A DNA stretch of 56,842 bases, from NCBI GenBank assembly GCA_030647435.1, contig JAUSJX010000064.1, positions 1-56,842 on the forward strand, read 5' to 3'. Shown one piece after another: positions 1-35,286 of this stretch. Below the pieces are notes generated by a model, which saw nothing but the letters and a program-made list of their open reading frames with translations, ran no database searches and was not told the origin of the DNA. Source of the DNA: Candidatus Rokuibacteriota bacterium. Its GTDB lineage: Bacteria > Methylomirabilota > Methylomirabilia > Rokubacteriales > CSP1-6. Every line of letters starts with the position of its first letter. The first letter of the stretch is position 1. The translations under genes and the position numbers were made by a program.

Positions 1-963
1 CGCCATGCGGAAGAAGCGCTTGCCCGTCGCCTTGAAGTAGCCGACCTGGATGATGACGGACACGGCCTCGACCACGTAGATCCCGCCGATGAGCGGCAGC
101 AGGAGCTCCGACTTCGTCAGCACGGCGAGCGTCCCGATCGCTCCGCCCAGCGCCAACGAGCCCACGTCTCCCATGAAGACCTGGGCCGGGTAGGTGTTGA
201 ACCAGAGGAAGCCCAGCGCCGCGCCCACCAGCGCCGCGCAGAAGATGGTCAGCTCGCCGATGCCCTTGACGTTCAGGATCCGCAGGTACTCCGCCAGCCT
301 GAAGTTGCCGGAGAGATACGCGATGATCGCGAAGGCGCCGCCCGCCATCACGATGGGCCCGATCGCCAAGCCGTCGAGGCCGTCCGTCAGGTTGACCGCG
401 TTCGAGGCGCCTACGATCACCAGCAGCGCGAAGGGCACCCAGAGCCAGCCGAGGGTCACCAGCCACCCCTTGAAGAAGGGGATGGAGAGCGCCGTGGAAA
501 AGCCGTCGGGCGGCCACAGATAGAGCCACGCCATGAGCGACCCGGCCAGCAGGATCTGCGCGCCGAACTTCTCCTTGGCGGAGATGCCCTTCCTGGTGCG
601 GAGCTTTCTCCAGTCGTCGAGGAAGCCGATGAGGGCGAAGCCCGATGTCGCCAGGATCAGCACCCAGACGTAGCGGTTGTGGAGATTGGTCCACAGGAGC
701 GTCGACATGAGCAGCGCCGCCAGGATGATGAAGCCGCCCATCGAGGGCGTCCCGGCCTTCTCGCGGTGGCGCTCCGGCGTGTCCTCGCGGATCGTCTCGC
801 CGCCGTCTTGCAGCGCCCGCAGCCGCCCGATCAGCCAGGGGCCCAGCACGAAGGAGATCACGATCGCCGTCACCGTCGCCATCGCGGCCCGGAACGTGAT
901 GTACCGGAAGACGTTGAAGACGATGCTGTCCCTGGCCAGCGGCACGAGGAGGTCGTAGAGCAT
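1..963 (-). CDS. mraY: MraY, phospho-MurNAc-pentapeptide transferase (partial, C-terminus cut by window edge)
   Basis: Integral membrane enzyme that moves phospho-MurNAc-pentapeptide from UDP onto undecaprenyl phosphate, giving lipid I. 321 codons are present; the family has about 360. The reading frame ends at the edge just before the expected HHH motif. Seen: a hydrophobic multi-pass protein, the family stretch TPSMGG near residue 72, the DD pair at 116-117 (GFLDDWRK), NLTDGLDGLA, and FMGDVGSLALGG. The ATG overlaps the murF stop by one base (TGATG), so it is translationally coupled at the end of the dcw operon. Confidence 0.97.
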   Translation of the reverse strand, partial: MLYDLLVPLARDSIVFNVFRYITFRAAMATVTAIVISFVLGPWLIGRLRALQDGGETIREDTPERHREKAGTPSMGGFIILAALLMSTLLWTNLHNRYVWVLILATSGFALIGFLDDWRKLRTRKGISAKEKFGAQILLAGSLMAWLYLWPPDGFSTALSIPFFKGWLVTLGWLWVPFALLVIVGASNAVNLTDGLDGLAIGPIVMAGGAFAIIAYLSGNFRLAEYLRILNVKGIGELTIFCAALVGAALGFLWFNTYPAQVFMGDVGSLALGGAIGTLAVLTKSELLLPLIGGIYVVEAVSVIIQVGYFKATGKRFFRMA

Positions 964-2354: not shown

Positions 2355-2362
2355 GCGCGGTC

Positions 2363-5907: not shown

Positions 5908-5937
5908 GGGGGCGGAGCGGCCTCGCCTCGCTTCATG

Positions 5938-6396
5938 CTAGCGGACCCTCTCAGGCACCGGCACAGCGGCCGCCGCGGTGCGCTCTCCGAGCGCCGTCGA
6001 TGCCGTGCCGGCGCCCGCAAACTCGCGCGCCAATTGGACCTGCTGCCGGGTGGGAGCGACCATGCCGAGCCGTGAGCGCGCCTCGAGCTCGATGCGCGCC
6101 AGCGATTGGAGGCTCGCCTTCTCGACGCGCAGCCGGCGGTTCAACTCCTCGGCGCCGGCCTTGGTCGTGCGCAGGGTGTCGAGCCGGTAGGACAGGCGCA
6201 CCTGCTGCATGCGGAGCCCGACCAGCCCCAGCACCAGCGCCACAACGACGCCGGCGGCCGCGACGCCCGCCAGCATGGCGCGCAGGCGCCGGCGGTCGCT
6301 GTCGCGGTGGAAGTGCGCCACCTGCTGGTCGGCCGTAGACGCTCCCCTGAGCCCCAGCGACATCTGGATCGGCATCGCGTGGCCACCCGTGTTCAT
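5938..6396 (-). CDS. ftsL: FtsL-like septum protein
   Basis: Small bitopic protein of 152 residues with one membrane helix at about 43-64 and a following heptad-like region (about 65-115), the FtsL layout, lying between rsmH and ftsI as in most dcw clusters. FtsL normally pairs with FtsB/DivIC and recruits FtsW/FtsI. Sequence conservation in this family is low, so the call rests on topology and position. An alternative start (MPIQM) lies seven codons in. Its 5' end abuts a repeat-filled gap (6397-6551). Confidence 0.85.
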   Translation of the reverse strand: MNTGGHAMPIQMSLGLRGASTADQQVAHFHRDSDRRRLRAMLAGVAAAGVVVALVLGLVGLRMQQVRLSYRLDTLRTTKAGAEELNRRLRVEKASLQSLARIELEARSRLGMVAPTRQQVQLAREFAGAGTASTALGERTAAAAVPVPERVR

Positions 6397-6551
6397 CTCA
6401 GCCCTCGCCTCCCCGCTGACTCACCCAGCCCTCGCCTCACGGCTTCGCCCTTCGGCTCGAACCGCCACGCCTGCGGGATCAACCCAGCTCTCGCCTCGCG
6501 GCGGCCATGGCCACCGCTCAGCTCGAACTGCGGGCAGCGTCTCGGCTCGAA
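6397..6551. repeat. Cluster of hairpin repeat units between rsmH and ftsL
   Basis: The whole gap is made of related units built on CAGCCCTCGCCTC and GGCTCGAAC in alternating sense, at about 6399-6411, 6424-6462 and 6469-6528. The last unit (6472-6528) matches 30846-30902 with differences that largely keep a palindromic core. It lies inside the dcw operon, so it is transcribed and would fold as an RNA hairpin. Confidence 0.7.
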
Positions 6552-6553
6552 CA

Positions 6554-7459
6554 TCAGGCCGCCTCCAGCCTCTCGAGCACACGGAGCTTGGCGCTCCGGG
6601 CCCGCGGGTTGCCGCTGATCTCGTCGTCCGACGCGGTAACCGGCGACGGCTCGAGCTCGATGAAGCCCGCCTTTTCGAGCGCTCGGAAGGCGCGCTTGAC
6701 CGCGCGGTCCTCGCCCGAGTGGAACGAGATGACGCCCAGCCTGCCGCCCCGCTCGAGCAAAGCCGGCGCCTCGTCCAGCGCCTGGAGGAGCGCCTCGGGC
6801 TCCTCGTTCACGGCCATGCGGAGCGCCTGGAAGGTGCGGGTGGCGACATGCGTGCGGCGCGACCAGGCCGCGCGGGGCACTCCGGCCTTGACCGCCTCGA
6901 CCAGGTCCGCGGTGATCGTCAGCGGGGAGCGCCGCCGCCGCTCGACGATTCGTTTCGCGATGCGCCGCGCGTGGCGCTCCTCGCCGTACTCGAAGAGGAT
7001 GCGGGCCAACTCGACCTCCGTTGCGTCCGCCAGCAGGTCCGCCGCCGTGCGGCCGCGAGTGGGGTCGAAGCGCATGTCGAGCGGCTCGTCCTTCTGGAAG
7101 CTGAATCCCCGCCCCGAGGCGTCGAGTTGGTAGGAGGACAGGCCGAGGTCGAGCAGGATCGCCGCGGCCCGGCTGACGCCGGCCTTGCCCGCGTGCGCGC
7201 CCACGTCACGAAAGCTCCCGTGGCGGAGCCGCACCCGGTCGCCAAAGCGCGCGAGCCTGCGGCGCGCGCGCTCGAGCGCTTCGGGGTCGCGGTCGATCCC
7301 GAGCACCCGGGTGCTCTCTCCGCCGGCTTCCAACAACCGTTCAGCGTGTCCGCCCATGCCGATCGTCCCGTCCACCACCCAGCCCCCGCGTCGGGGGCGC
7401 AAGAGGAACGTCACTTCGTCCACCAGCACCGGGAGGTGCGCGGCCGCCTCCCGCTCCAT
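6554..7459 (-). CDS. rsmH: RsmH (MraW), 16S rRNA m4C1402 methyltransferase
   Basis: SAM-dependent N4-methyltransferase acting on C1402 of 16S rRNA. 301 residues from the ATG at 7459; the frame is open further upstream, but this start lies 2 bp after the mraZ stop and gives the family N-terminus HLPVLVDEV. Seen: SAM-binding VVDGTIGMGGHAE, ILLDLGLSSYQLD, GFSFQKDEPLDMRFD, and the C-terminal ISFHSGEDRAVK and NPRARSAKLRVLER. All are characteristic of RsmH. Confidence 0.97.
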   Translation of the reverse strand: MEREAAAHLPVLVDEVTFLLRPRRGGWVVDGTIGMGGHAERLLEAGGESTRVLGIDRDPEALERARRRLARFGDRVRLRHGSFRDVGAHAGKAGVSRAAAILLDLGLSSYQLDASGRGFSFQKDEPLDMRFDPTRGRTAADLLADATEVELARILFEYGEERHARRIAKRIVERRRRSPLTITADLVEAVKAGVPRAAWSRRTHVATRTFQALRMAVNEEPEALLQALDEAPALLERGGRLGVISFHSGEDRAVKRAFRALEKAGFIELEPSPVTASDDEISGNPRARSAKLRVLERLEAA

Positions 7460-17885: not shown

Positions 17886-19331
17886 ATGTCCGGCCCCGAA
17901 TTCGACGGCGCCCCGCCCGCTCCCGATCCTTCCGCGGCCCCGCCGCGGCCCTTCTTCCGCCCGTGGGCGACCTGGCTCTCGACGGCCCTCGTGACAGGAC
18001 TCATCGGCTATCTCTTCATGCTGACGCCCGGCGGGCCGCTCGATCGTCTCCACCGGCCGGAGGACTCGCTCGAGCGGCTGACGGAGCGCGAGATGGACGT
18101 GCGCGCGGCGCTCCGCCATGCAACCCCGTGGGAGCGCCGCCTCTACGCCCTGCTCTCCGGAGGGGACGAGGGCATCGACGACTGGATCCGCTGGCACGAG
18201 GAGCTGGCCGAGGTCTCGACGTCGCCCGACGTGGAGCTCTCCCGGTTGATCCTGCTCGGCGAGACGCGCCAGACGGAGGCCCTGCGGTCGGCCCTGGACG
18301 ACCGGGAGGACGACGACGCGGCGGCGACGCGCAGGAGGGACTGGATCGAGGCCGCCTACCTCGAACCGTCTCTCAGCCGCGCCACCGGGCGAGCGCTCAT
18401 CACCGAGGTGCGCGACGAGCTTCCCGCGGGCTGGTTCGCCGACGCGCTCGTCGCGCGCCTCGCGCGCCGCTCGGGCGACGCCATCGCGCGCCAGCAGGCC
18501 GAGTCCGCCATCGCGGCGCGCGGTTCGGTCCTGCTCCGCCGCTGGCGCGCGCTCGAGGCCGCGGGACTGCTGCTGGCCGTGGCGGGCCTCGCGACCGTGG
18601 CCGTCATGCTCCTGACCCATGCAGATCTGAAGGTGGCAGACGCCCGCGTGCCGGACGGCTTCTCGCTCGCGGAGGGCTACGCGCTGTTCATCCGGGGCGT
18701 GCTCGGCTTTCTCGTCCTGGGCGCCGGCTTGGGCCTGATGATTCCCGACGACAGCGCGCTCGACGCCCTCACGGGCCCGGCGTCCGTGGCGCCCGTCCTT
18801 CTCTACGCCGCCTGGTACCTGCGCTCACGCGGCCTGTCCTTCACCGCGGCCTTCGGGCTCTTGCCCGGCCGGGATCGTCTCGTCACCGTCGCCTGGGTCT
18901 CCCTCGCTCTCGTCGGGCTCCAGCTGGCAGGCGAGAGCCTGATCGGAACGGCGCTCGACGCCCTGCGCCTCAGCTCGCACTGGGCCGACGGGCTCCAGGA
19001 AAACCTCATATGGGGCTCGTGGGGGCTCGTAGCCCGCGAGACGATCGGCAGCGCGCTCTGGGCGCCGCTCGGCGAAGAGGTGGCCTTCCGCGGCGTCCTC
19101 TACCCTGCGCTCCGTAGGCACTTCGGCGTCGCGCCGGCAGCGGCGCTCTCTGCGGCCGTCTTCGCGGTCGCGCACGGCTACGGAGTGCTTGGCTTCGCCG
19201 CGGTCTTCTGGAGCGGCATCCTCTGGGCGCTGGCCTACGAGCGGACCGGGACCCTCTGGCCCTGCATCGTCGCGCACGCTGCCGGCAACCTGGCGGCGAC
19301 GGTCGGCGTCGTCACTCTCCTGAGGAGCTAG
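17886..19331 (+). CDS. CPBP-family intramembrane metalloprotease with long N-terminal domain
   Basis: 481 residues from ATG 17886; earlier in-frame sequence overlaps the remnant gene and is shadow-like. Residues about 30-50 form a first membrane helix, followed by about 160 soluble, charged residues. The C-terminal half is multi-pass and carries the CPBP (Abi) motifs: EEVAFRG, then FAVAHGYG, then IVAHAAGN, which supply the glutamates and histidines of the Rce1-like active site. Ends in a 4-bp convergent overlap with the next gene. Confidence 0.88.
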   Translation: MSGPEFDGAPPAPDPSAAPPRPFFRPWATWLSTALVTGLIGYLFMLTPGGPLDRLHRPEDSLERLTEREMDVRAALRHATPWERRLYALLSGGDEGIDDWIRWHEELAEVSTSPDVELSRLILLGETRQTEALRSALDDREDDDAAATRRRDWIEAAYLEPSLSRATGRALITEVRDELPAGWFADALVARLARRSGDAIARQQAESAIAARGSVLLRRWRALEAAGLLLAVAGLATVAVMLLTHADLKVADARVPDGFSLAEGYALFIRGVLGFLVLGAGLGLMIPDDSALDALTGPASVAPVLLYAAWYLRSRGLSFTAAFGLLPGRDRLVTVAWVSLALVGLQLAGESLIGTALDALRLSSHWADGLQENLIWGSWGLVARETIGSALWAPLGEEVAFRGVLYPALRRHFGVAPAAALSAAVFAVAHGYGVLGFAAVFWSGILWALAYERTGTLWPCIVAHAAGNLAATVGVVTLLRS

Positions 19332-19789
19332 CGCTTCAACGAACGCAGGAGGGCGGCGATGCCCGCCTCGCCGACCTGCGTGTCCTGCTCGCCGGTGCCG
19401 CCGCTCACGCCGATGCCGCCGACCACCTCGCCCTCCACCTCGATGGGGAAGCCGCCGACAAAAATCGCGAACTTGCCCGGGTGCATGGCGTGGATGCCGA
19501 AGGCCTCGTTGCCCGGCAGCGCGGGACCGCCGGGCGGCGCGTTGAATTTGTGGGTGGCGCGCCGGTGGCCGGCCGCGGTGAAGGCCTTGGCGATGGCGAT
19601 CTCGACCCCGGTGAGGCGCGCCCCCGTCATCCGATGGAGGGCGATGGGGTGCCCGCCGTCGTCGCAGACGCAAACGGTCTCGGCGACGCTGATCTCCTTG
19701 GCCTTGGCCTCGGCCGCCTCCAGGATGATGCGCGCGTCCTCCAGCGTGAGCCGCTTGACCGTGATCATCCGCGCTGCCCCCCGCGACAC
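19328..19789 (-). CDS. HbpS/GlcG-family protein (heme-binding-like fold)
   Basis: 153 residues. Seen: LTLEDARIILEAAEAKAKEI, VCVCDDGGHPIALHRM, KAFTAA and the C-terminal GGIGVSGG.GEQD, all landmarks of the GlcG/HbpS (DUF336) family. Members bind heme, cobalamin-like or small organic ligands, or accompany oxidases. Starts 4 bp after the Rieske gene stop; with it and the diiron gene it forms one operon. Confidence 0.88.
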   Translation of the reverse strand: MSRGAARMITVKRLTLEDARIILEAAEAKAKEISVAETVCVCDDGGHPIALHRMTGARLTGVEIAIAKAFTAAGHRRATHKFNAPPGGPALPGNEAFGIHAMHPGKFAIFVGGFPIEVEGEVVGGIGVSGGTGEQDTQVGEAGIAALLRSLKR

Positions 19790-19793
19790 CGGT

Positions 19794-20099
19794 TCACAGC
19801 ACCTCCACCCATATGTCCCCGCCCTCGATCCGCACGGCGTAGGTCGCGATCGCCGCGCCCCGGGTAGGCAGGAGACACTGCCCGGTCCGCACGTCGTAGA
19901 GCCACCCGTGCCAGGGACAGGTCAGCCTGGCCCCGGCGAGCTTGCCCTCGCTGAGCGGGCCGCCGCGGTGCGAGCACGTGTCGGCGCAGGCGTAGACGCG
20001 CTCCCCGACGCGGGCCGGCACCACGCGCGTCCCGTTGACCTCCGCCAGCTTGCAGCCGCCCGACGGGACCTCCTCGAGGGAGGCCACGCGGTACTCCAT
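19794..20099 (-). CDS. Rieske [2Fe-2S] ferredoxin
   Basis: 101 residues, essentially one Rieske domain. Cluster ligands: Cys42 and His44 (CSH), Cys61 and His64 (CPWH), spaced as in NirD and dioxygenase ferredoxins. No signal peptide, so a soluble electron carrier. About 40 bp after the diiron gene stop; the likely role is electron supply to that protein (inference from context). Confidence 0.93.
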   Translation of the reverse strand: MEYRVASLEEVPSGGCKLAEVNGTRVVPARVGERVYACADTCSHRGGPLSEGKLAGARLTCPWHGWLYDVRTGQCLLPTRGAAIATYAVRIEGGDIWVEVL

Positions 20100-20140: not shown

Positions 20141-20827
20141 TCACATGTCTTCCTTCAGGACGAAGGCGCGGTGGAGGCCGGTCATGTACTGCCAGCGCAT
20201 CTCGGTCGCCTGCCGCACCTGCTCGGCGGCCTCGGCCTGCTTCTCGGGCGTGGTCGAGTGCCCCTCGACGATCTGGTATCCGCGCTCGCCGTGGACCTCG
20301 TCCGCCTCGATGTGGATGGCGAAGAACTCCACCTCGTGGTCGGTGAAGCCGTAGTGGGTCTTGAGCGGCGGCAGGCTGCGCTGGTAGATGCCTGGCACCT
20401 GCGACTCCAGGCCGACGAGGAGCCCCGCCGCGGCGATGTGGAAGGGGCGCTGGGAGGTCTCGTAGCACCACGCCGTGAGCGCCCGGGTCGTCGGAAGCTG
20501 CTGCGCGGTCTCGACTTCCCTGCGGCTGACTCCGCAGGCCTCGGCGAAGCGGATCAGCAGGTCGACGTGCTTGACGCCCGATTCTTCTTCGATGATGTTC
20601 TCGAGCAGGAAGTCCCGGGCGTCCGAGTCTGGGCACTCGGCGTACACGGCCGCGCACCAGCGGGCGAACTGGGACACGTACTGGTAGTGCTGCGACGCCC
20701 ACGAGCCGAACTGCGCCCGCGTCAGCTCCCCCTTGACCCACGTCTCCGTGAAGGGATTCATGCGGCTGTGCTTGGCCGCGACCGCAGCCTCGAGGCGCTG
20801 GCGGAACGGGCTCTTCGTCTCGCTCAT
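20141..20827 (-). CDS. Heme-oxygenase-like diiron protein (HDO/CADD, PqqC-TenA fold)
   Basis: 228 residues from ATG 20827; the open frame upstream is shadow. Recognisable start NPFTETWVKGELTRAQFGSW as in PqqC/CADD proteins. The complete set of HDO metal ligands can be placed: Glu80, His87, Glu141, His172, Asp176 and His179 (E-x6-H, then E, then H-x3-D-x2-H). CADD, UndA and SznF use this set to activate oxygen at a diiron site, while PqqC itself is cofactor-free. The reaction here is unknown. Operon with a Rieske ferredoxin and an HbpS-like protein. Confidence 0.85.
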   Translation of the reverse strand: MSETKSPFRQRLEAAVAAKHSRMNPFTETWVKGELTRAQFGSWASQHYQYVSQFARWCAAVYAECPDSDARDFLLENIIEEESGVKHVDLLIRFAEACGVSRREVETAQQLPTTRALTAWCYETSQRPFHIAAAGLLVGLESQVPGIYQRSLPPLKTHYGFTDHEVEFFAIHIEADEVHGERGYQIVEGHSTTPEKQAEAAEQVRQATEMRWQYMTGLHRAFVLKEDM

Positions 20828-20903: not shown

Positions 20904-21862
<959 letters not shown>

Positions 21863-21866
<4 letters not shown>

Positions 21867-22858
21867 CCTTTAATACGGCGGGCGGGCGCCTCGGCAGCCA
21901 GCCAGCAGCGCGCCCGGTGCTGGGCGGCCACGCGGGTTTCGGGCGGCGCCTCGGTGCGGCAGCGCTCGATCACCAGCGGGCAGCGCGGGTGGAAGGCGCA
22001 GCCCGGCGGCAGCGCGGCCGGGTCGGGCGGCTGGCCCTCGATGGCCGTCAGCCGCGCGGCGGTGTCGCCGAAGCGCGGAATGGACTCGATGAGCGCCCGC
22101 GTGTAGGGATGGGCCGGGGCGTCGAAGATCGTCCGCACCGGACCCGCCTCGACCAAGCGCCCCGCGTACATGACTGCCACCTGGTCGCACATCCGCGCCA
22201 CGATGCCGAGGTTGTGGGTGATGAAGATCATGGCGAGCCCGTGCTCGCGCTGGATCTCGCGCAGCAGCTTGAGGTACTGCGCCTGGATCGTCACGTCCAG
22301 GCTCGTGGTCGGCTCGTCGGCGATGAGCAGCCGCGGCCCGCAGGCGATCGCGATGGCGCCGACCACCCGCTGGCGCATCCCGCCCGACAGCTCGTGGGGG
22401 TACTCGCTCACCCGCCGCTCCGGCGCCGCGATGTTCACAGCCGCCAGCAGCTCCCGGGCCCGCGTCCAGGCGCCCCGTCTCGTCATGCCCTCGTGCGCGC
22501 GCAGCGTCTCGGCGATCTGGTCGCCCACCGTGAAGAGCGGATTGAGCGAGGCCATCGGGTCCTGGAGGATCATGGCCATGCGCTTGCCGCGGATGGCGCG
22601 CATCTCGGCATCGGACTTGTCGAGGAGGTCCTCGCCCTCGAAGCGCATGGACCCGCTCGCGATCCGCGCCCCCGGCGGCAGGAGCCGCATGAGCGTCAGC
22701 GCCAGCGTCGTCTTGCCGGAACCGGACTCGCCGACGATCCCGAGGGTCTTCCCCGCTTCGAGCGTGAAGGAGACGTCGTCCACCGCGCGCGTCACGCGGG
22801 TTCCGCGCGCACCGACGTACTGGGTCGACAGCCCCGAGACTTCGAGGAGCGCGGTCAC
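21863..22858 (-). CDS. Oligopeptide ABC transporter ATP-binding protein (OppD/DppD)
   Basis: 331 residues starting at GTG 22858, which overlaps the permease stop as GTGA. Walker [10 protein letters not shown] (43-51), signature LSGGMRQR, Walker [14 protein letters not shown]-terminal GCAFHPRCP extension. Pairs with the OppF-type ATPase downstream. Confidence 0.96.
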
Positions 22859-23739
22859 AGCTCGCGGAGCTGCGGGTCGAGCTTGACGCGGAGCCAGTCG
22901 CCGAGGAGGTTGGCCGAGAGAACCATGAACATGATGCAGAGCCCCGGCAGCACGGTCAGCCACCAGTAGCCGGCCATGAGCCCCTTCTTCCCGTCGGCCA
23001 GCATGAGCCCCCAGGCGGGCTTGGGCGGCGGCACGCCGACGCCGAGGAAGGACAGCGCGGCTTCGGTGACGATGACGATGCCCAGCATGAGGGTGCCGAG
23101 CACGATGGCGGAGTTCAGCACGTTCGGCAGGATGTGGCGGCGCATGATCGTCTTCTTCGAGCAGCCCGCGACGATGGCCAGGCGCACGTAGTCGCGCTCG
23201 CGAAGCGAAAGGACCTCGCCCCGGATGACGCGGGCGTAGCGCGTCCAGTAGACGGCGGCCAGGATGATGACGATGTTCCACTGGCTGGGGCCCACCACGG
23301 CCGCAAGAAAGATCGCGAAGGTCAGCGCCGGCAGCGCCAGCCACGTGTCCGTGACGCGCATGATCACCTGGTCCACCCAGCCGCCGAGGTAGCCGGACAG
23401 GATGCCGAGCGTCGTGCCGAGGAGGCCGGCCACGATGACCGCGGTGAAGCCCACCACCATGGAGACGCGCGCGCCGAAGATGAGGCGCGACAGCACGTCG
23501 CGCCCGACGTGGTCGGTGCCGAGCAGGTAGGCCTCGCTGCCGCCGGCCTGCCACGCGGGCGGGCGGAAGCGGTCGCCGAGCACGCCGATCTCAGGGTTGT
23601 ACGGCGCCAGCACTTCGGCGAAGACGGCCACGAGCGCGATGATGGCGATGATGATCGCGGGGATCCAGGGAAAGCCCTCGATCCGGAGCCAGGCGAAGCG
23701 CCAGGCCACCGTGAGTGAGGCCGTTCGGCTGCCGTTCAT
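22855..23739 (-). CDS. ABC transporter permease, DppC/OppC type
   Basis: 294 residues; [21 protein letters not shown] and the EAA loop region [21 protein letters not shown] are visible, with six predicted membrane helices. Starts 6 bp after the DppB-type gene; overlaps oppD by 4 bp. Confidence 0.95.
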
Positions 23740-23745
23740 CGCCGC

Positions 23746-24666
23746 CTACCTCTCATAGCGGATGCGCGGGTCGATCACCGCGTACAGGACGTCCACGAAG
23801 AAGTTGACGATCACGATCATGGCCCCGCCGATGAGGACGGTGGCCTGGACCACCGGGAAGTCGCGGAAGGAGATGCCCTCGTAGAGCAGCCGGCCGACCC
23901 CGGGCCACGCGAAGACCGTTTCGACGACCACCGCGACATTGACCATGATGACCAGGTTGATGCCGGCCAGCGTCAGCACGGGGATGAGCGCGTTCTTGAA
24001 GGCGTGCTTGCCGATGACGAGCGCCTCGGGCAGCCCCTTGAGGCGCGCGAGCTTGACGTACTCCGAGCCCAGCACCTCCAGCATGGCAGAGCGCGTCAGC
24101 CTCATGTGGGCCGCCGCGAAGTACCAGCCGAGCGCGAACGCCGGCATGATGACGTGCAGCGCCGTGCCGGAACCGGAGGACGGCAGCCAGCCGAGGTACA
24201 CGGAGAAGAACAGGATCATGACCAGGCCGACCCAGAAGGAGGGGAGCGACAGCCCGAGCAGCGCGAAGATCTTCCCCGCGCTGTCCCACCATTGGTTCAC
24301 GCGGACGGCGGCGAGGATGCCGCTCGGGATGCCGACGAGGAGCGAGAATGCCATGGCCGCCACGGCGAGCATAAGGGAGTGCGGCAGCCGGGAGAGGTAC
24401 AACTCCAGCACCGGCGTGCGGTAGTAGAAGGAGTGGCCGAGGTCCCCTCGGGCGAGGCTCGACATGAACTGGCCGTACTGGACCCAGAGCGGCCGGTCGA
24501 GGCCGAGCTGGAGGCGGACGGCGGCCAGGTCATCCTTGCTCGCCCCCGGCTCCACCAGCAGCACCGAGGGGTCGCCCGTCAGGCGCACCAGCAGGAAGAT
24601 GGTGAGAGAGAGCAGGAGCAAAGAGAGCACGGCGTAGCCCAGCCGCTTGACGATGAAGCGTTTCAT
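23746..24666 (-). CDS. ABC transporter permease, DppB/OppB type
   Basis: 306 residues from ATG 24666, which overlaps the binding-protein stop (ATGA). Seen: VKRLGYAVLSLLLLSLTIF, GDLGHSFYYRTPV, the EAA-like ARLKGLPEALVIGKHAFKNA, and the terminal IDPRIRYER. Confidence 0.95.
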   Translation of the reverse strand: MKRFIVKRLGYAVLSLLLLSLTIFLLVRLTGDPSVLLVEPGASKDDLAAVRLQLGLDRPLWVQYGQFMSSLARGDLGHSFYYRTPVLELYLSRLPHSLMLAVAAMAFSLLVGIPSGILAAVRVNQWWDSAGKIFALLGLSLPSFWVGLVMILFFSVYLGWLPSSGSGTALHVIMPAFALGWYFAAAHMRLTRSAMLEVLGSEYVKLARLKGLPEALVIGKHAFKNALIPVLTLAGINLVIMVNVAVVVETVFAWPGVGRLLYEGISFRDFPVVQATVLIGGAMIVIVNFFVDVLYAVIDPRIRYER

Positions 24667-26201
24667 GGCTGCCTCTTGAGCCTCAGGTCCTCGTACGGCC
24701 CCGAGTACGCAAAGCCCTTGATCTGGTCCACGCCGGCCTCCTCCACGCGGGGCCCCAAGCCCCAGAGGAAGGCCAGCTCGTAGATCGGGATCTGCATCAC
24801 CCGATCGTGGAGGATCTGCTGGATCTGGCGGACCATGGTCTCCCGCTTCGCGCGGTCCAGCTCGCGGGCCTGACGCTGGAAGAGGTCCTCCACCTCCGGG
24901 AGCACGCCGGTAGTGTAGATGCCCCCCTTGCTCACGTAGGCCTCGAGCCGCGTCGCCGCATTGCCCGACGCGCCGGTGATGCCCACGATCAGCCCCTTGA
25001 GCTTGCGCTCGCGCCACGCGGTGAGGAACGACGCGCGCTCCATGGTCCGGATTCTCGTCCGGATGCCCACGGCCTGGAAATAGCCGGCCAGGGCCTCACC
25101 CATGGAATCGTAGGGCGGGAACGGGTAGAAGTCGCCGGCGTCGAAGCCGTTCGGATACCCGGCCTCGGCCAGGAGCTTCTTCGCCTTACCGGGGTCATAG
25201 GCCGGGGGCTCGAAGGCCAGGGCGAACTCGAAGCTCCGGGGGATGATGCTGCCCGTCGGCAGCGAGAAGCCGAGCGTCTCGGCCTGGTTGATGGCGTTCC
25301 GGTCGATGGCGTGGCGGGCCGCCTGGCGCACGCGCTGGTCATGCCAGGGCGACTTCGGGTCCCACTGGTCAGGCAGGTCGATCCAGAACACGCCGGGGGG
25401 CTTGGCGCCCACGAGCTTGAGCCCCGGCGTCTTCCGGACGTCGTCGGCCACGGGCCCGGTCAGGAGATAGGCGATGTCCACATCGCCCTTTTTGAGCGCG
25501 GCGGCCCGCGTCGTCTCCTCGGGCATGCTGCGGAAGACGAGCCGCTTGACCGACGGCGTCTTCCGCCAGTAGCCGTCGAAGGCCTCCATGACCAGCTCGA
25601 CGCCCGGGGTGAAGCTCACCACCTTGTACGGGCCGGCGCCGATCGGGGCCTTCTTGAAACCGTCGTCGCCCACCCTTTCCACGTACTTCTTCGGCACGAT
25701 CCACGCCGCGCCGGTGGCCGAGGTGCCGTAGAAGGTCATGAAATCCGGCCACGGCTCTTTGAGATGAAAGCGGAGACGGGTTCCGTCGACGATCTGGACT
25801 TCGCGCACCCGGTCCTTGAGCAGCTTGGCGGCCACGCCTTTGTAGCGGTCGAAGGAGAACTTCACGTCCTCCGCCGTGACGGGATCGCCGTTGTGGAACT
25901 TGACGCCCTTGCGGAGGACGAACTCGTAGATGAGCCCGTCCTTGGACGCGGTCCACGACTCGGCGAGGCTCGGCGTATTGGCCCCTGCCGGCATGGGCTT
26001 CACCAGCGCGTCGTGAATGGCGTAGTACACCATGAACGGGGTGATCAGGCCCTCGGCCTCAGCCGGATCCAGCCAGCGGGACACCAAGGTCACGTGGATA
26101 CCATAGGTCAATGTCCCCTCGGGCGCGGCGCCGGCGGGCGCCGCGATCGCGCACATCAGCAGAGCGGACCCAAGCAGTCCGAACAGTCGCGTTCTCAACA
26201 T
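24663..26201 (-). CDS. SBP5-family periplasmic solute-binding protein (copy 2 of a tandem pair)
   Basis: 512 residues with signal peptide cleaved near AGA|A (about residue 25). Landmarks: FVLRKGVKFHNGDPVTAED, KFSFDRYKG, GAGPYKVVSFTPG, HAIDRNAINQA. It closely parallels the protein at 26211-27764 along its whole length, for example WPDFMTFY followed by TGAAWIVPKKYVE in both. The pair feeds one permease/ATPase set directly downstream. Ligand unknown. Confidence 0.95.
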   Translation of the reverse strand: MLRTRLFGLLGSALLMCAIAAPAGAAPEGTLTYGIHVTLVSRWLDPAEAEGLITPFMVYYAIHDALVKPMPAGANTPSLAESWTASKDGLIYEFVLRKGVKFHNGDPVTAEDVKFSFDRYKGVAAKLLKDRVREVQIVDGTRLRFHLKEPWPDFMTFYGTSATGAAWIVPKKYVERVGDDGFKKAPIGAGPYKVVSFTPGVELVMEAFDGYWRKTPSVKRLVFRSMPEETTRAAALKKGDVDIAYLLTGPVADDVRKTPGLKLVGAKPPGVFWIDLPDQWDPKSPWHDQRVRQAARHAIDRNAINQAETLGFSLPTGSIIPRSFEFALAFEPPAYDPGKAKKLLAEAGYPNGFDAGDFYPFPPYDSMGEALAGYFQAVGIRTRIRTMERASFLTAWRERKLKGLIVGITGASGNAATRLEAYVSKGGIYTTGVLPEVEDLFQRQARELDRAKRETMVRQIQQILHDRVMQIPIYELAFLWGLGPRVEEAGVDQIKGFAYSGPYEDLRLKRQP

Positions 26202-26210
26202 TCGCCCCTC

Positions 26211-27764
26211 CTATTTCCCTTTGAGCTTGAGATCTTCGTAGGGCGCCGAGTAGGCATGGCTGGTGATGGCGTTGAGCCCGTGCGCCTCGACCCGCGGCCC
26301 CACGCCGTTGAGGAAGGCGGGCTCCAGCACGGGTGCGAACATGACGCGCTCGTGGATCAGCTGCTGGAGCTTGTCGAGGATCTGCCGCCGCGCGCGGGCA
26401 TTGGTCTCGTTGGCCTGCTCGGAGTACAGGCCGTCCACCTCAGGATAGGAGCCGTAGACGTACTGGCCGCCCGTCACCGCGTAGGCCTCGAGCCGCGTGG
26501 CCGCGTTGCCGGGGGCGGCGCTGCCGCTCTGGATGACGTACTTGAGCTTCTTCTCGCCGTACTGCTTGAAGAACGCCGCGCGCTCGAGCGGGCGGAGCTG
26601 CAGGCGGATGCCGACGGCCGTGAGGTAATTGACCACGGGCTCGCCGATGGCCGTGCCGTAGATTTGGTCGCCGGAAAGCTCGCCCGCGTCGAAGCCGTTG
26701 GGGTAGCCCGCCTCGGCGAGCAGCTGCTTCGCCTTCTTGGGGTCATAGGGATAGGCCGGCGGCTGCCAGGCGTAGTCCATGGCGTGCGGGATGAAGGAGA
26801 CGGCGGGCCTGGCATAGCCCAGGTACACGGCCTGGTTGATGGCCTGACGGTCGATGGCGTAGTTGGCGGCCATGCGCACCCGCTTGTCCGCCCACGGCGA
26901 CTTGGCGTCCCACTGCTCGGTGAAGAGCAGCCACACCGTGAAGAGGATATAGGTCGGCTTGAGCGTCAGCCCGGGCGTGCGCTTGACCTCCTCGGCGAGC
27001 GGCCCGGTGATGCTGTAGGCGATGTCCACCTCGCCGCGCTTGAGGGCCGCCAGGCGCGTGGACTCGTCGGGGATGACGCGGAGCACGAGGGTCTTGACGG
27101 CGGGCGTCTTGCGCCAGTACTGCTCGTGGGCCTCCAGCGTGAGCTCCACGCCGGGCTTGAAGGAGACGAATTTGTACGGGCCCGCGCCCACCGGCGCTTT
27201 CTTGAAGCCCTCCTCCCCCACCTGCTCCACGTACTTCTTCGGCACGATCCACGCGGCCCCGGTCGCGGGCGTGGCGTAGAAAGTCATGAAGTCGGGCCAG
27301 GGCTGCTTGAGGACGAAGCGTACGCGGTGTGGATCCACCACTTCGACGCGCGCCACTCTCGCCTTCATCTGCTTGGAGGACGCGCCGCGGTAGCGCTCGA
27401 AGGAGAACTTGACGTCCTCCGCCGTCATGACGTCGCCGTTGTGGAACTTGACCCCCTTGCGAAGCGCGAACTCGTAGGTGAGCCCGTCCTTGGACATCGT
27501 CCAGGACTCCGCCAGCGAGGGCGCCATGGCATTGCCGGGCATGGGCTTCACGAGCGCGTCGTGCAGCGCGTACAGCACCATGAAGGGCGTGATGATGCCC
27601 GAGGTCTCGGCCGGGTCGAACCAGGTGGGCGCGAGCGAAACGTGGACGGCCCAGGTCATCTGGCCGTTTGGGCCTGCGGCGCTGACCGGTCCTGCCGCGC
27701 CGGCCGGCGAAGACATGGCCAAGGCGGCAACGAGGGAAACGGCGCACGCTCGGGAGCGGGTCAT
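26211..27764 (-). CDS. SBP5-family periplasmic solute-binding protein (copy 1 of a tandem pair)
   Basis: 517 residues from ATG 27764, chosen because GGAGG lies 7 bases upstream; an ATG nine codons earlier lacks a site. Signal peptide (SLVAALAMSSPAGAAG). Same landmarks as the neighbour: FALRKGVKFHNGDVMTAED, KFSFERYRG, YAIDRQAINQA, and C-terminal SAPYEDLKLKGK against SGPYEDLRLKRQP. First gene of the operon 27764-20904. Confidence 0.95.
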   Translation of the reverse strand: MTRSRACAVSLVAALAMSSPAGAAGPVSAAGPNGQMTWAVHVSLAPTWFDPAETSGIITPFMVLYALHDALVKPMPGNAMAPSLAESWTMSKDGLTYEFALRKGVKFHNGDVMTAEDVKFSFERYRGASSKQMKARVARVEVVDPHRVRFVLKQPWPDFMTFYATPATGAAWIVPKKYVEQVGEEGFKKAPVGAGPYKFVSFKPGVELTLEAHEQYWRKTPAVKTLVLRVIPDESTRLAALKRGEVDIAYSITGPLAEEVKRTPGLTLKPTYILFTVWLLFTEQWDAKSPWADKRVRMAANYAIDRQAINQAVYLGYARPAVSFIPHAMDYAWQPPAYPYDPKKAKQLLAEAGYPNGFDAGELSGDQIYGTAIGEPVVNYLTAVGIRLQLRPLERAAFFKQYGEKKLKYVIQSGSAAPGNAATRLEAYAVTGGQYVYGSYPEVDGLYSEQANETNARARRQILDKLQQLIHERVMFAPVLEPAFLNGVGPRVEAHGLNAITSHAYSAPYEDLKLKGK

Positions 27765-27947
27765 GGTCTGTCCTCCGCTGCACTGCGACAAGGACCGGAA
27801 ACGCTCGCGGGCTGCGAGGTTGCCCGATTATGCCCAAATCCCCTGCCCTGTCAATAGGAGCCGCGGGCGCTGGAGGCGCCGCGGGTGCTGGAGGGGCCGG
27901 GGTCCGCGATTGCCGCCTGCTGCGCCCTGTGCTACCGTCCGCCGGAC

Positions 27948-29258
27948 ATGGGCGACATCCTCGACCTGGCCGAGCGGTTCTGGCAGGGACAGATCCCGCC
28001 GCGCGACCTGTGGCGGCCGACACACAAGAGCGAGGAGCTGGCGCCGGGTGTCGTCTTCTTCCACACCTGGGCGAATGTCACCGCCATCCGAACCGAGGCG
28101 GGGCTCGTCCTCGTGGACACGGGCAACTACGCCGCGCGCGCCAAGACCTTTGCCGCCGTGCGCGCGGTGGACGGTGATCCCCTCCACGCCGCCGTCTACA
28201 CCCACGGCCACGCGGACCACGCCTGCGGACTGCCGCCCTTCCTTGAGGAAGCGCGTGAGAAGGGTCGCCCCGCGCCGTTGATCGTCGGGCACCGGAACGT
28301 CGCCGCCCGCTTCGACCGGTACCGGATGACCGCGCCCTGGAACGGCCTCATCAACTCGCGCCAGTTCTCGGTGAACACCACGTGGCCGACGGACTACGAC
28401 TACCCGACCGTCGTCTACGACGCGGCGTACGCTCTCGAGGCGGGCGGCGCGCGTCTCGAGCTGACGCACGCGCGCGGCGAGACCGACGACCACACGTGGC
28501 TCTGGTGGCCCGAGCGGCGCATCCTCTTCACCGGCGACCTCTTCTTCTGGGTCGCCCCCAACGCCGGCAACCCGCAGAAGGTCCAGCGCTACGCCGCCGA
28601 GTGGGCGCGGGCCCTGCGCGCGATGGCGGAGCGCGGCGCCGAGCTCCTGATCCCGGGCCACGGTGTCCCGATCGTGGGCGCGGCGCGCGCGCGCCAGGCG
28701 CTCAGCGACACGGCGGAGTGGCTCGAGACCCTCGAGCACGAGACCGTGGCGCGCATGAACGCCGGGCTCGGCCTCGACCAGATCCTCGCCGAGGTACGCC
28801 CGCCCGCGCATCTCGCCGAGCGCCCGTACCTCCAGGCCGTCTACGACGAGCCGGAGTACGTCGTGCGCAATATCTGGCGGCTCTACGGCGGCTGGTGGGA
28901 CGGCCAGCCGGCGCATCTCAAGCCCGCCCGCGAATCGGAGATTGGACGGGAGGTCGCGGCGCTGGCGGGCGGCGCCGAGGCGCTCGCCGACCGCGCCCGG
29001 GCCCTGGCCGAGAGCGGCAGCTTTGCTCTCGCATGCCACCTGGCCGACTGGGCTGCGGCCGCGGCGCCCGACAACGCGCGGGTCCACGCCGCGCGCGCCG
29101 ACATCTACGAAGCGCGCGCCCAAGCTTCAAACGCCCTCATGACGCGTGGTATCTTCTCCGCTACGGCACGCGAGTCGGCGACGAAGGCCGGCCGCGGTCC
29201 CGAACAGGGTGCCAGGCCGGCGCCGACCCCCAAGACGCCCCCAATCCAACGAGGGTAG
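27948..29258 (+). CDS. Metallo-beta-lactamase-fold hydrolase, alkylsulfatase-like
   Basis: 436 residues from ATG 27948. The zinc motif THGHADHACG places His86, His88, Asp90 and His91; LTHARGETDDHTWLW and FTGDLFFW supply further ligands, and IPGHGVPIVG the last His. The C-terminal part (about 270-400) fits the SdsA-type alkylsulfatase dimerisation region (NIWRLYGGWWDGQPAHLKP). No signal peptide is seen, so probably cytoplasmic. Substrate not determined; sulfate-ester or lactone hydrolysis are both possible. Ends with a Pro/Lys-rich tail 3 bp before the next gene. Confidence 0.88.
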   Translation: MGDILDLAERFWQGQIPPRDLWRPTHKSEELAPGVVFFHTWANVTAIRTEAGLVLVDTGNYAARAKTFAAVRAVDGDPLHAAVYTHGHADHACGLPPFLEEAREKGRPAPLIVGHRNVAARFDRYRMTAPWNGLINSRQFSVNTTWPTDYDYPTVVYDAAYALEAGGARLELTHARGETDDHTWLWWPERRILFTGDLFFWVAPNAGNPQKVQRYAAEWARALRAMAERGAELLIPGHGVPIVGAARARQALSDTAEWLETLEHETVARMNAGLGLDQILAEVRPPAHLAERPYLQAVYDEPEYVVRNIWRLYGGWWDGQPAHLKPARESEIGREVAALAGGAEALADRARALAESGSFALACHLADWAAAAAPDNARVHAARADIYEARAQASNALMTRGIFSATARESATKAGRGPEQGARPAPTPKTPPIQRG

Positions 29259-31803: not shown

Positions 31804-34800
31804 TCACACTGCGTCGAGCCTGGCTGCGAGCTCCGCCGCGCGGGCGCGGAAGTGTCTCACGTTGTCGAGCTTGATGTCCTCGTAGCCGCGGATCATGTCG
31901 GGCAGGTCGCCGAGCGCCACCGCCGTGTCGTGGGTGGCGGGCGAGAGTGACGCGAGCGCCCGCTCGACCAGCGCGCGGTACTCGCCGATCAGCGCCCGCT
32001 CCTCGCGCCGCACGCGGGCGTAGCCGAAGACGTCGAGCGACGTGCCGCGCAGCCCCTTCATCGCGTGGAGCGCCGAGAAGGCGGGCTTGAACCAGGAGCC
32101 GAACCGGATCTTCTTCTTGAGCCCGAGCGCCCGCAGGAGCGGCGGGTGCAGGTGCCAGTAGTAGCGGATCTCGGAGCCGAAGCGCGCGTGGAGCTCCGCC
32201 TCGAGCGCGGCCGAGAGATGCAGGCGCGCCACCTCGTACTCGTCCTTGTACGCCATGAGCTTGAAGAGGTGGCGCGCGACGGCTTCGGACAGCCCCGTGC
32301 GGCCGGGCGTCTTCCGCGACTCCTCGCCGGCCACACGCGTGACGAACTCGACGTACCGCCGCGCATAGGCCGCGTCCTGGTAATCGATCAGCTCGGGCAC
32401 GCGGATCTCGAGCAGCCTGCGGAGCTCGCCCGTCGAGCCCGCGGCGTCCACCAGTGCCCGCGCCTCGGCCGAGAGGGCGCGCGAGGTCTCGGCCTTGCCC
32501 TGGGCCTGGACGACCGCGGCCTCCACGCGCTTGGCGTCCACCACGGCCATGCGCCCCCAGCGGAAGGCCAACAGGTTCATGTCCACGCTGACGCCGTTGA
32601 GCCGGATGGCGGCCTCGAGAGAAGCGGTGCTGATCGGGAGCGCGCCGCACTGGTAGGCGGCGCCCACCATGATGAAGTTGGTCGCCATGTGGTCGTTGAA
32701 GAGCGCCTCGGCCATGGCCTGGGCGTCCACGTAGACGTTGGCGTCCTTGCGCGTCACCCGGTCGATGCTCATCAGCGTGCTGCCGAGTTCGGGGAACTGG
32801 AGCGTGGTGTCCACGACCATCCGGCCGGTGGGGATCTGGCTCGTCGAGACGGCGGCGATGGTGCGGCCCGACTCGGCCTTGTCGAGGTTGACCGGGTCCG
32901 TGGCGACGAGAAGGTCGAAGCCGAGGTAGAGGTCGGCGCCGCCGGCCGAGACCTTGTTGGAGCCCTCGATGGGCTGGGAGTCGATCCTGAGGTCCGAGAC
33001 CACAGGGCCCCCCTTCTGCGAAAGCCCCGTCTGATCGAGGCCGCGCACGTGGCGGCCGTCGAGCATGGCGGCCGTGCCCAGGATCTGGTTCACCGTCACG
33101 ACGCCGGTGCCGCCGATGCCCATCATGTGCAGCGCGAAGCCGTCGCGGGGCACGCGCAGCGCGGGCTCGGGCAGGTCGGCGTCCAGCGGCGTCAGGCGCC
33201 GCTCGCGCGTGCGCGGCTCGCCGACCGGCTCGATGGTCAGGAATGACGGGCAGTCGCCGAGGAGGCACGAGTAGTCCTTGTTGCACGAGGACTGGTGGAT
33301 CTGGGTCTTCCTGCCGAACTCGGTCTGGACAGGTTGGACGGAGAGACAGTTCGACTTCCGGCCGCAGTCGCCGCACCCCTCGCACACGGCCTCGTTGATG
33401 AAGATCCGCGTCTGGGGATCGGCCTGCTTGCCGCGCTTCCTGAGCCGCCGCTTCTCGGCTGCGCACTGCTGGTCGTGGATGAGCGCCGTCACGCCCAGGA
33501 CGGCCGCCAGCACCGACTGGGCCTCGAGGAGGCGGTCGCGGTGCCAGACCTCCGTGATGCCCGCGAGGGAGACGCCCTTGTAGATCTCCGGGTGGTCCGT
33601 CGTGATGATGATGCGCTTGACGCCGTCGGCTTCGAGTCGCCTCGTCAACGCGGGGATGGGCAGCGCCCCCGCGGCGTCCTGGCCGCCCGTCATCGCGACG
33701 GCCGAGTTGTAGAGGATCTTGTACGTGATGTTGACGCCCGCAGCGATGGCGTAGTTGATCGCGAGGCTGCCCGAGTGGAAGAGCGTGCCGTCGCCGATGT
33801 TCTGAAAGAGGTGCGGCGTCTCGGTGAAGGGCGAGATCCCGACCCACTGCGCGCCTTCGGCGCCCATGTGCGTGACGCCGATGATGCCGCGGTCCATGCC
33901 CATGGCCATGCCGTGGCAACCGATGCCCGCCGCGGCGACGCTGCCTTCCGGCACGACGGTGGACCGGTTGTGGGGGCAGCCCGAGCAGAAGTAGGCCGTG
34001 CGCGCGAGCGACAGCGGCTTGGGCCGCTGCTTGAGCTCGTCGATGTGGCGGATGCGCGCCTCGACGGAATCGATCCTGAGCTTCCGGGCGATCCGCCTGG
34101 CGATGGCGCGGGCGATGACATCCGGGTCGAGTTCGCCCACGACCTCGACGAGCAGCCGGTTTTCCTCGTCGCGCTTGCCGACGATCCGCGGCCTGTCGGC
34201 CTGGCCGTAGAGAATGTCCTTGCAGAACATCTCGAGGAAGGCCCGCTTCTCCTCGACGACCAGGATCTCCTCGAGCCCCCGCGCGAACTCGCGGACTATC
34301 CGAGGCTCCATCGGAAAGAGCATGCCCATCTTCAGCAGGCGGATGCCGTGGCGGCGGAGCCCCTCGTCATCGAGACCGAGCTCCAGGAGCGCCTGGCGAA
34401 CGTCGTAGTACGTCTTGCCCGCGCTCATGATCCCGAGCCATGCGTCCGGCGTCGGCACGGTGATGCGGTTGAGCTTGTTCTCGTACGCGTAGAGCCGCGC
34501 CAGCTCGAGGCGTGCGTGGTGGAGCGTGCGCTCCATGTCGAGCCCGTAGGGCGGGATCAGGTTGACGTTGATCGCGTGCTCGAAGCGCCGGCCGTCCAGC
34601 TCGATCGTGGGAATGATGGGGCTGACGCGCTCGGGCGACACCTCGGCCGTGCCCGCCTCGTCGGCGACGTTCGTGACGATCTTGACGCCGACCCAGAGCC
34701 CGGAAGTTCGGGAGAGCATGAAGCCGTGCAGGCCCAGGTCGAGGATGTCCTGGACATTGCCGGGAAAGATGGTCGGCATGAGCGCGTCGTAGAGCGCGAC

Positions 34801-35286
34801 TTCCGAGTGGCTCGGCAGCGTCGAGGACTTGGACACCGGGTCGTCTCCCGCCAGGGCCAGCACACCGCCGTTCTTGCCGACGCCGGCGTAGTTGGCGTGC
34901 TTGAAGGCGTCGCCCGACCGGTCCACGCCCGGCGCCTTGCCGTACCACATGCCGAGGACGCCGTCGTACCTGGGGCGCGGGAAGAGGCCGACCATCTGGC
35001 TGCCGAAGATCGCCGTGGCTCCCAGATCTTCGTTCAGGCCGGACGAGAAGACCACCTGATGCGCTTCGAGCAGCTTCTTCTCACGGTCGAGGGTCTGGTC
35101 GAGGCCGCCCAGCGGCGAGCCGCGGTAGCCGGAAACAAAGGTCGCCGTGTTGAGCCCCCGCCGCTTGTCGGCGCGATGCTGATCCAGCGGGAGCCTGACG
35201 AGCGCCTGGATGCCGGAGAGGTAGATGCGCCCCGACTCCTGCGTGTACTTCGCGTCCAGCGAGAACTGGTCGGCCTTGCTGGTCAT
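31804..35286 (-). CDS. Indolepyruvate ferredoxin oxidoreductase, fused alpha-gamma (IorAB-like)
   Basis: 1160 residues, the length of the fused aerobic-bacterial form. It decarboxylates aryl-pyruvates to aryl-acetyl-CoA with TPP and Fe-S clusters. Seen in order: pyrimidine-binding domain (FVSGYRGSPLGGLD, about 50-63), TPP domain with CSGCPHN (434-440) and NIGDGTLFHSGSLA (496-509), a cysteine cluster CEGCGDC...C (635-647) and further cysteines near 668-679, then the gamma domain GIGGTGVVTVNQIL near 725. Probable role: catabolism of aromatic amino acids. A large open frame at 31721-33919 in another frame is shadow. Confidence 0.94.
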   Translation of the reverse strand: MTSKADQFSLDAKYTQESGRIYLSGIQALVRLPLDQHRADKRRGLNTATFVSGYRGSPLGGLDQTLDREKKLLEAHQVVFSSGLNEDLGATAIFGSQMVGLFPRPRYDGVLGMWYGKAPGVDRSGDAFKHANYAGVGKNGGVLALAGDDPVSKSSTLPSHSEVALYDALMPTIFPGNVQDILDLGLHGFMLSRTSGLWVGVKIVTNVADEAGTAEVSPERVSPIIPTIELDGRRFEHAINVNLIPPYGLDMERTLHHARLELARLYAYENKLNRITVPTPDAWLGIMSAGKTYYDVRQALLELGLDDEGLRRHGIRLLKMGMLFPMEPRIVREFARGLEEILVVEEKRAFLEMFCKDILYGQADRPRIVGKRDEENRLLVEVVGELDPDVIARAIARRIARKLRIDSVEARIRHIDELKQRPKPLSLARTAYFCSGCPHNRSTVVPEGSVAAAGIGCHGMAMGMDRGIIGVTHMGAEGAQWVGISPFTETPHLFQNIGDGTLFHSGSLAINYAIAAGVNITYKILYNSAVAMTGGQDAAGALPIPALTRRLEADGVKRIIITTDHPEIYKGVSLAGITEVWHRDRLLEAQSVLAAVLGVTALIHDQQCAAEKRRLRKRGKQADPQTRIFINEAVCEGCGDCGRKSNCLSVQPVQTEFGRKTQIHQSSCNKDYSCLLGDCPSFLTIEPVGEPRTRERRLTPLDADLPEPALRVPRDGFALHMMGIGGTGVVTVNQILGTAAMLDGRHVRGLDQTGLSQKGGPVVSDLRIDSQPIEGSNKVSAGGADLYLGFDLLVATDPVNLDKAESGRTIAAVSTSQIPTGRMVVDTTLQFPELGSTLMSIDRVTRKDANVYVDAQAMAEALFNDHMATNFIMVGAAYQCGALPISTASLEAAIRLNGVSVDMNLLAFRWGRMAVVDAKRVEAAVVQAQGKAETSRALSAEARALVDAAGSTGELRRLLEIRVPELIDYQDAAYARRYVEFVTRVAGEESRKTPGRTGLSEAVARHLFKLMAYKDEYEVARLHLSAALEAELHARFGSEIRYYWHLHPPLLRALGLKKKIRFGSWFKPAFSALHAMKGLRGTSLDVFGYARVRREERALIGEYRALVERALASLSPATHDTAVALGDLPDMIRGYEDIKLDNVRHFRARAAELAARLDAV

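Follow-up and report, generated by a model that had tools for sequence, protein, structure and literature searches.

A conserved operon in Rokubacteria places a predicted heme-oxygenase-like oxidase beside a Rieske ferredoxin and an HbpS-family protein

We use a combination of neighbourhood surveys, profile searches and structure prediction to study a three-gene operon in Candidatus Rokuibacteriota bacterium. The whole stretch of DNA analysed, 56,842 nucleotides, is here called the window, and the closest relatives of its 5.79 Mb source genome lie in the Rokubacteria group (Methylomirabilota). The operon encodes, in direct succession on the minus strand, an HDO-family protein (the HDO, below), a Rieske-type ferredoxin and an HbpS-family protein; it is real, conserved within a family of soil bacteria that have not been cultured and, in a modified version, in Cupriavidus and Caballeronia, and not described in the literature that we searched. 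We put at roughly 60% the probability that the three genes form a conserved functional unit in which the HDO would act as an oxidase, the ferredoxin as its dedicated redox partner and the HbpS protein on its reactive product. A preliminary description of the window, made from its letters alone, had proposed this trio, and each of the genes does stand on the minus strand where it was placed, down to position 19328. The genes of the operon, and the importer genes upstream of it, are the following:

20141..20827, minus strand: HDO-family protein, 228 aa (Pfam, ligand alignment, AlphaFold2, Foldseek)
19794..20099, minus strand: Rieske-type [2Fe-2S] ferredoxin, 101 aa, with C42-x-H44 ... C61-x2-H64 (Pfam Rieske, 6.9e-18)
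19328..19768, minus strand: HbpS/GlcG (DUF336) protein, 146 aa, subtype A (Pfam HbpS-like, 5.9e-37)
20904..21866, minus strand: Opp/Dpp-type ABC ATPase, DppF-like (NF008453, 412.3 bits, cut-off 408)
21863..22858, minus strand: second Opp/Dpp-type ABC ATPase, optional neighbour (gene call; paralog cluster, cl 8, shared with the first ATPase)
22855..23739, minus strand: ABC permease, OppC-like, optional neighbour (Pfam BPD_transp_1, 3.1e-33)
23746..24666, minus strand: ABC permease resembling OppB in position and sequence, optional neighbour (gene call; PermB homolog, 85%, in L003)
24663..26201, minus strand: SBP_bac_5 solute-binding protein, optional neighbour (Pfam, 2.6e-79)
26211..27659, minus strand: second SBP_bac_5 solute-binding protein, optional neighbour (Pfam, 5.1e-88)

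The HDO starts at the ATG at 20827, which is preceded by a purine-rich ribosome site of the GGAG type. For HbpS the homologs begin at the ATG at 19768, and the upstream GTG at 19789 is thus an unlikely start. The gene 3' of HbpS is convergent and CAAX-protease-like, so the operon ends at HbpS; scanning for promoters and terminators turned up none. At the other end, an Opp/Dpp-type importer (two ATPases, two permeases and two SBP_bac_5 proteins) lies upstream on the same strand, with its DppF-like ATPase 76 bp from the HDO. This ATPase possibly belongs to the same operon as an optional, lineage-specific member, and an ABC gene is also found immediately upstream of the HDO at four other loci (L068, L069, L083 and L107). 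Elsewhere in the window we note an alkyl sulfatase-like metallo-beta-lactamase gene (Alkyl_sulf_dimr, 27885-29258) divergent from the importer that precedes the HDO, an indolepyruvate:ferredoxin oxidoreductase-like protein of 1160 aa with a POR domain and DUF6537 (31804-35286), and an ordinary cell-wall cluster on the minus strand (963-7459) with a Mur ligase, a penicillin-binding transpeptidase and the MraW methylase.

The case for a functional unit begins with how often the three genes are found together. In a scan of 95 Methylomirabilota genomes, with an ortholog defined as an HDO of at least 77% identity, we find orthologs at 42 places in 40 genomes. The DNA around 40 ortholog loci, including the window, was passed through a codon-usage gene caller and its genes were clustered; 37 of these loci have more than 1 kb of sequence downstream and can be tested for the partners. 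HbpS comes after the HDO in 37/37 of them and a Rieske gene lies between the two in 32/37, counts that do not represent independent events, the surveyed genomes being related and most of them from one order. The neighbourhood survey proposed in the preliminary description therefore supports the module, and the rare co-occurrence with the Rieske gene that would have counted against it did not appear. Because the 5.79 Mb source genome holds only 3 HbpS, 9 Rieske and 2 Haem_oxygenas_2 genes and the full trio is nevertheless found at 32 of 37 loci, the linkage is not chance. The genes mostly overlap or stand short gaps apart, frequently with a start/stop overlap of 4 bases. As a control we took 17 paralogous HDO-family loci (~27-37% identity), and at none of them does a Rieske or HbpS cluster adjoin the paralog. 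At five Rokubacterial loci (L081, L083, L104, L107 and L118) the adjacent Rieske gene is absent and HbpS is still there, so an adjacent copy is not strictly required in cis.

The surroundings of the unit are more variable than the unit itself: 15 different gene clusters adjoin its upstream side and 12 its downstream side. The commonest run 3' of the trio comprises a CoA-transferase III, an amidohydrolase, an acyl-CoA ligase, a nitronate monooxygenase and a luciferase-like monooxygenase. We found no NAD(P)H:ferredoxin reductase within the trio. In many Rokubacteria two or three tandem GAF-GGDEF genes stand immediately upstream of the HDO operon (L071:5491-8692 and similar loci).

Is the ferredoxin specific to this HDO? 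The protein matches PF00355 above the cut-off, its length is the ~100 aa expected of a Rieske-type ferredoxin, and the four ligands (CxH...CxxH) are invariant in 34/34 sequences. Its nearest solved relatives include dioxygenase ferredoxins and the ferredoxin of toluene-4-monooxygenase (T4MO), T4moC. With the window protein as the query against the 95 genomes, all 36 matches of at least 55% identity adjoin this HDO: 35 lie within 200 bp of it, and one (in genome G058) sits at a contig end next to HDO-like C-terminal residues. The best match below that group is only 47% identical (95 Methylomirabilota genomes). Since the linkage to the HDO is exclusive, we infer that electrons probably pass from the Rieske protein to its neighbour.

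The HbpS protein (127 bits against PF03928, cut-off 25) shows the same attachment with an added twist. Used as a query against the 95 genomes, it gives 7/7 matches of at least 82% identity at this operon, the G058 copy again at a contig end; genome G018 has a 55% relative, yet no ortholog of this HDO. In a first tblastn pass HbpS seemed rare beside the HDO, a reading we rejected as an artefact of the query, which is of subtype A, after clustering had shown subtype B in most loci. Subtype A, found in the window's genus and at L073 and L082, is 82-93% identical to the window protein and 57-62% identical to HbpS of Burkholderiaceae; the remaining Rokubacterial loci carry subtype B, ~30% identical to subtype A, in the same slot. 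The HDO orthologs of subtype A and B loci are alike 79-93% identical to the window HDO, and the HDO tree intermingles the two kinds of loci, with weak branch support. The pattern suggests that HbpS may have been replaced repeatedly within the operon. A swap of one DUF336 protein for another in a kept operon would point to a need of the HDO for a protein of this kind, and the two subtypes may bind different ligands. Judged by gene content, HbpS is the constant partner of the HDO; the Rieske gene is replaced in Burkholderiaceae and absent at the five Rokubacterial loci.

As for the ligand of HbpS, its nearest solved proteins are OrfY, PduOC, EfgA and NahX, among which EfgA is a DUF336 formaldehyde sensor with Lys, Ser and Asp residues implicated in formaldehyde binding (PMC8153426). 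The counterparts of these pocket residues in the window HbpS, K61, S122 and D129, are conserved. Because such residues are widespread across DUF336, they cannot single out an aldehyde as the ligand, and the match is a faint hint of one.

A counterpart of the operon occurs in another phylum. Run separately against 72,556 plasmid records (E <= 1e-15), the HDO query and the HbpS query return the same six Burkholderiales replicons, 4 from Cupriavidus and 2 from Caballeronia; the next HbpS matches, at 43-46% identity, are mostly from Rhizobiales and Rhodobacterales, and no relative was found among viral contigs. In three of the Burkholderiaceae clusters (L065-L067) an aldehyde dehydrogenase (ALDH), HbpS (59%) and a BenC-like Fer2-FAD-NAD reductase come after the HDO (48%), with two Fer2 ferredoxins, flanking a protein of 101-116 aa, encoded divergently; these clusters also contain a permease-like protein and a reductase of the OCD family. 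The Fer2 ferredoxins and the reductase thus stand in place of the Rieske protein. The ALDH is nearest to alpha-ketoglutaric-semialdehyde dehydrogenases, yet falls below their cut-offs. From these comparisons, the constant elements across phyla are an HDO, an HbpS protein and a 2Fe-2S electron source, with the Rieske ferredoxin as the Rokubacterial solution. The protein of 101-116 aa (L065:9063-9413, L066:6373-6693, L067:6318-6623), of which the L065 and L066 copies have no Pfam match, is possibly a further component of the HDO system. The permease-like protein of ~500 aa (cluster 44; L066:7088-8626, L065:3932-5545) likewise lacks a Pfam match and is kept with the Burkholderiaceae HDO cluster. 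Our in-depth search covered the genomes of a single phylum and the collection of plasmids, and one contig scan used patterns suited to close relatives; other lineages may carry the module.

We now turn to the HDO itself. It matches Haem_oxygenas_2 far above the cut-off (Pfam, 1.4e-34), and its AlphaFold2 model (built on 27 sequences, with three plasmid-record rows left out) has a mean pLDDT of 94.7. Foldseek places CtCADD first among PDB structures (8va9; TM 0.87/0.92, 1.7 A, 26% identity), ahead of PqqC, UndA, BesC and HrmI, and the model has the heme-oxygenase-like fold of seven helices. The metal ligands of CtCADD, which we take to be E81, H88, E142, H174, D178 and H181, are present as residues in our alignment and have as counterparts E80/E81, H87, E141, H172, D176 and H179 in the window protein. 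This set of three His and three carboxylates shows no exception, at any covered column, among up to 39 orthologs, 3 Burkholderiaceae homologs and 12 paralogs (two groups, of 8 and 4 proteins), so that the six ordered ligands of the preliminary description stand up to the alignment except for the first, which it had given as E80 alone. The CtCADD alignment sets E81, not E80, against the first ligand of that enzyme. The Glu-to-His spacing is one residue shorter in the window protein than in CADD, with E80 to H87 running from i to i+7. With no variation at E80, E81 or E82 and a loop to H87 that is shorter by that residue, either E80 or E81 may be the first Glu ligand. From the conserved residues and the predicted fold we infer that the HDO is likely to bind a di-metal cluster and to activate O2. 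A second HDO clade of Rokubacteria (paralogs L088-L094 and L123; 32-37% identity) has kept neighbours of its own (clusters 25, 29, 30 and 36), and its members have Trp at the position of the CADD substrate Tyr27.

What reaction might such a protein carry out? The solved proteins closest to it by sequence, as by fold, are annotated 4-aminobenzoate synthases, and the preliminary description had raised a CADD-like role in making p-aminobenzoate, to be checked by a search for absent pab genes. CADD and NePabS cleave a tyrosine of their own (Y27/Y25), with a lysine (K152/K159) as the amine donor, and a second tyrosine of NePabS, Y41, is likewise essential (PMC11965152). The window HDO and its relatives lack this equipment: the position of the sacrificial Tyr27 is Thr in 37/37 covered orthologs and Ser in Burkholderiaceae, the essential Tyr43 position is Trp in the window HDO, CADD Lys152 aligns with position 151 (Ser in the window, mostly Asn in orthologs), and the radical-path residues Tyr141/Tyr170 are Leu/Phe. 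The TIGR04305 model does match, but at 136.4 bits and thus below its cut-off of 200. As for the gene search, in the source genome TrpE is the sole chorismate-binding enzyme (TIGR00564, 555 bits vs 518), with no separate PabB, but most of 57 family genomes have a single chorismate-binding gene with or without this HDO, and G040, G067, G070, G073, G088 and G090 are examples with no second such enzyme though the HDO is absent. Because most family genomes are alike in this respect whether or not they carry the HDO, the absence of PabB does not implicate it. A self-sacrificing enzyme has, moreover, no obvious need of a ferredoxin or of HbpS. We regard a p-aminobenzoate synthase of the CADD/NePabS type as hardly conceivable here, and that part of the preliminary description falls away. 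Most metagenome-assembled genomes of the family, with one chorismate-binding enzyme and no separate PabB, thus show no evident source of p-aminobenzoate for folate. Nearly as improbable is a metal-independent enzyme like PqqC or TenA, which would use the same fold without a di-metal site. The HDO does share its fold, and weaker sequence similarity, with these proteins, but the full 3H/3C set is invariant; together with the ligand set, a TIGR02111 score of 71.5 against a cut-off of 240 led us to reject an identity as PqqC. No need for a ferredoxin partner is known for PqqC.

We therefore return to the reading of an oxidase with a dedicated redox partner and HbpS, for which a plausible course of events can be written down. 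The HDO would bind a di-iron (or Fe/Mn) cluster through its three His and three carboxylates and use O2 to oxidise a small compound, either imported or from a catabolic pathway. In a cycle proposed from established HDO chemistry (PMC13108848), the diferrous cluster and O2 would give a peroxo-diferric oxidant that attacks the bound small molecule and leaves a diferric cluster. The dedicated Rieske ferredoxin would bring the cluster back to the diferrous state between turnovers, a job that would fall to the 2Fe-2S ferredoxins and BenC-like reductase in Burkholderiaceae and that MboB does in mangotoxin synthesis. Much as EfgA binds formaldehyde, HbpS would take up the reactive intermediate or product, in all likelihood a carbonyl compound, and would pass it to, or buffer it for, the next enzyme: the ALDH in Cupriavidus and Caballeronia, and in most Rokubacteria the CoA-transferase, amidohydrolase or acyl-CoA ligase. 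An aldehyde product would agree with the ALDH gene next to the HDO in Burkholderiaceae. A bolder version, possible in our view but doubtful, is that these operons define a class of three-component di-iron oxygenases on the heme-oxygenase fold, with the HDO as terminal oxidase, the Rieske protein (or ferredoxin and reductase) as donor and HbpS as an obligatory, carbonyl-capturing third component; if true, this would be the catabolic counterpart of the ferritin-fold multicomponent monooxygenases.

Other accounts of the same genes differ from this reading in how they see the partners or the substrate. The module could be the same redox system put to biosynthetic use: it would tailor an amino-acid-like metabolite, and HbpS would serve as scaffold or activator rather than carry an aldehyde. 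Characterised HDOs are indeed nearly all biosynthetic, with amino-acid- or fatty-acid-like substrates (PMC13108848), and a gene of the OCD/mu-crystallin type, like imine reductases, adjoins the Burkholderiaceae HDO. Against this, the neighbours examined include no peptide synthetase or assembly-line gene and consist of importers, ALDH, CoA-transferase III, acyl-CoA ligase, amidohydrolase, and luciferase-like and nitronate monooxygenases, and we consider a biosynthetic module rather unlikely, though worth keeping in mind. The family names alone would suggest heme catabolism and iron release, by a heme-oxygenase fold, a 'haem-degrading' HbpS and a Rieske donor, and some HbpS proteins do bind heme (PMC4923194). 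But the HDO, with its six conserved metal ligands, is nearest CADD, PqqC and UndA rather than heme oxygenases; EfgA, of the HbpS family, came through purification with neither metal nor cofactor (PMC8153426); and the genes nearby serve solute import and catabolism instead of heme uptake. All of this makes heme handling very improbable. Finally, the three genes could be passengers that are neighbours through common descent and are not coupled in function, as one might suspect when most surveyed genomes come from one order. We give this next to no credence: the unit stays while its flanks change, close relatives of the partners are found only there, HDO and HbpS recur with a 2Fe-2S chain in another phylum, and the HDO paralogs lack Rieske and HbpS partners.

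How new is the oxidase and its partners? HDOs with a known function number only about a dozen, nearly all of them in natural-product synthesis (PMC13108848), and our literature search for HDOs with a Rieske protein, with HbpS or in catabolism gave nothing besides MboAB and reviews. The statement in the preliminary description that no named pathway has this trio thus holds for the literature searched, but a dedicated HDO redox partner has a precedent in MboAB (PMC13185094). By present evidence an HDO with such a partner is already known in kind and is not a new kind of enzyme; the trio as a whole suggests a self-contained oxidation system of a kind not yet described. A widespread, compact and naturally paired HDO and Rieske protein makes electron delivery to HDOs directly testable, and the relative cluster in the cultivable Cupriavidus metallidurans CH34, whose HDO lies at L066:9974-10690, opens the system to experiment. 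The constant HbpS partner, in turn, offers a concrete setting in which to learn the role of a common and poorly understood family beside oxidative enzymes.

Among the closest known systems is MboAB, published in 2026, which its discoverers regard as possibly the first dedicated pair of HDO and redox partner to be characterised; its MboB, a flavin/Fe2S2 reductase encoded in a toxin (mangotoxin) operon, re-reduces MboA (PMC13185094). As there, a 3H/3C HDO is encoded beside a dedicated iron-sulfur redox partner, and the Burkholderiaceae version even has a Fer2-FAD-NAD (BenC-like) reductase; the window pair shares the tightly linked, specific redox gene, judged by genetic linkage and exclusivity. 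Here, however, the partner is a stand-alone Rieske protein, HbpS is always present and no biosynthetic cluster is seen. CtCADD and NePabS are closest in fold and sequence (~26% identity, TM 0.87/0.92) and have the same six ligands, but in the window HDO the sacrificial Tyr, the Lys and the radical-path Tyr residues are replaced, redox and HbpS partner genes are added, and its presence is not tied to the loss of PabB. UndA, BesC and HrmI resemble it in fold and ligand chemistry (as Foldseek matches), although they are only 16-17% identical and the HDO review reports no dedicated redox partner for them. T4moC, a small Rieske ferredoxin, reduces the di-iron protein T4moH of toluene-4-monooxygenase, and the likeness extends to the sequence, T4moC being among the solved relatives of the window Rieske; T4moH, in contrast, is a multisubunit hydroxylase of the ferritin fold that works with an effector protein, and the fold predicted here is that of heme oxygenase. 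EfgA, PduOC, GlcG, OrfY and NahX belong to the same DUF336/HbpS family, with the Lys, Ser and Asp of the EfgA formaldehyde pocket conserved here, but they represent other subfamilies, OrfY and PduOC being nearest the window HbpS by sequence; and whereas efgA has no conserved context, the window HbpS is fixed in the HDO operon.
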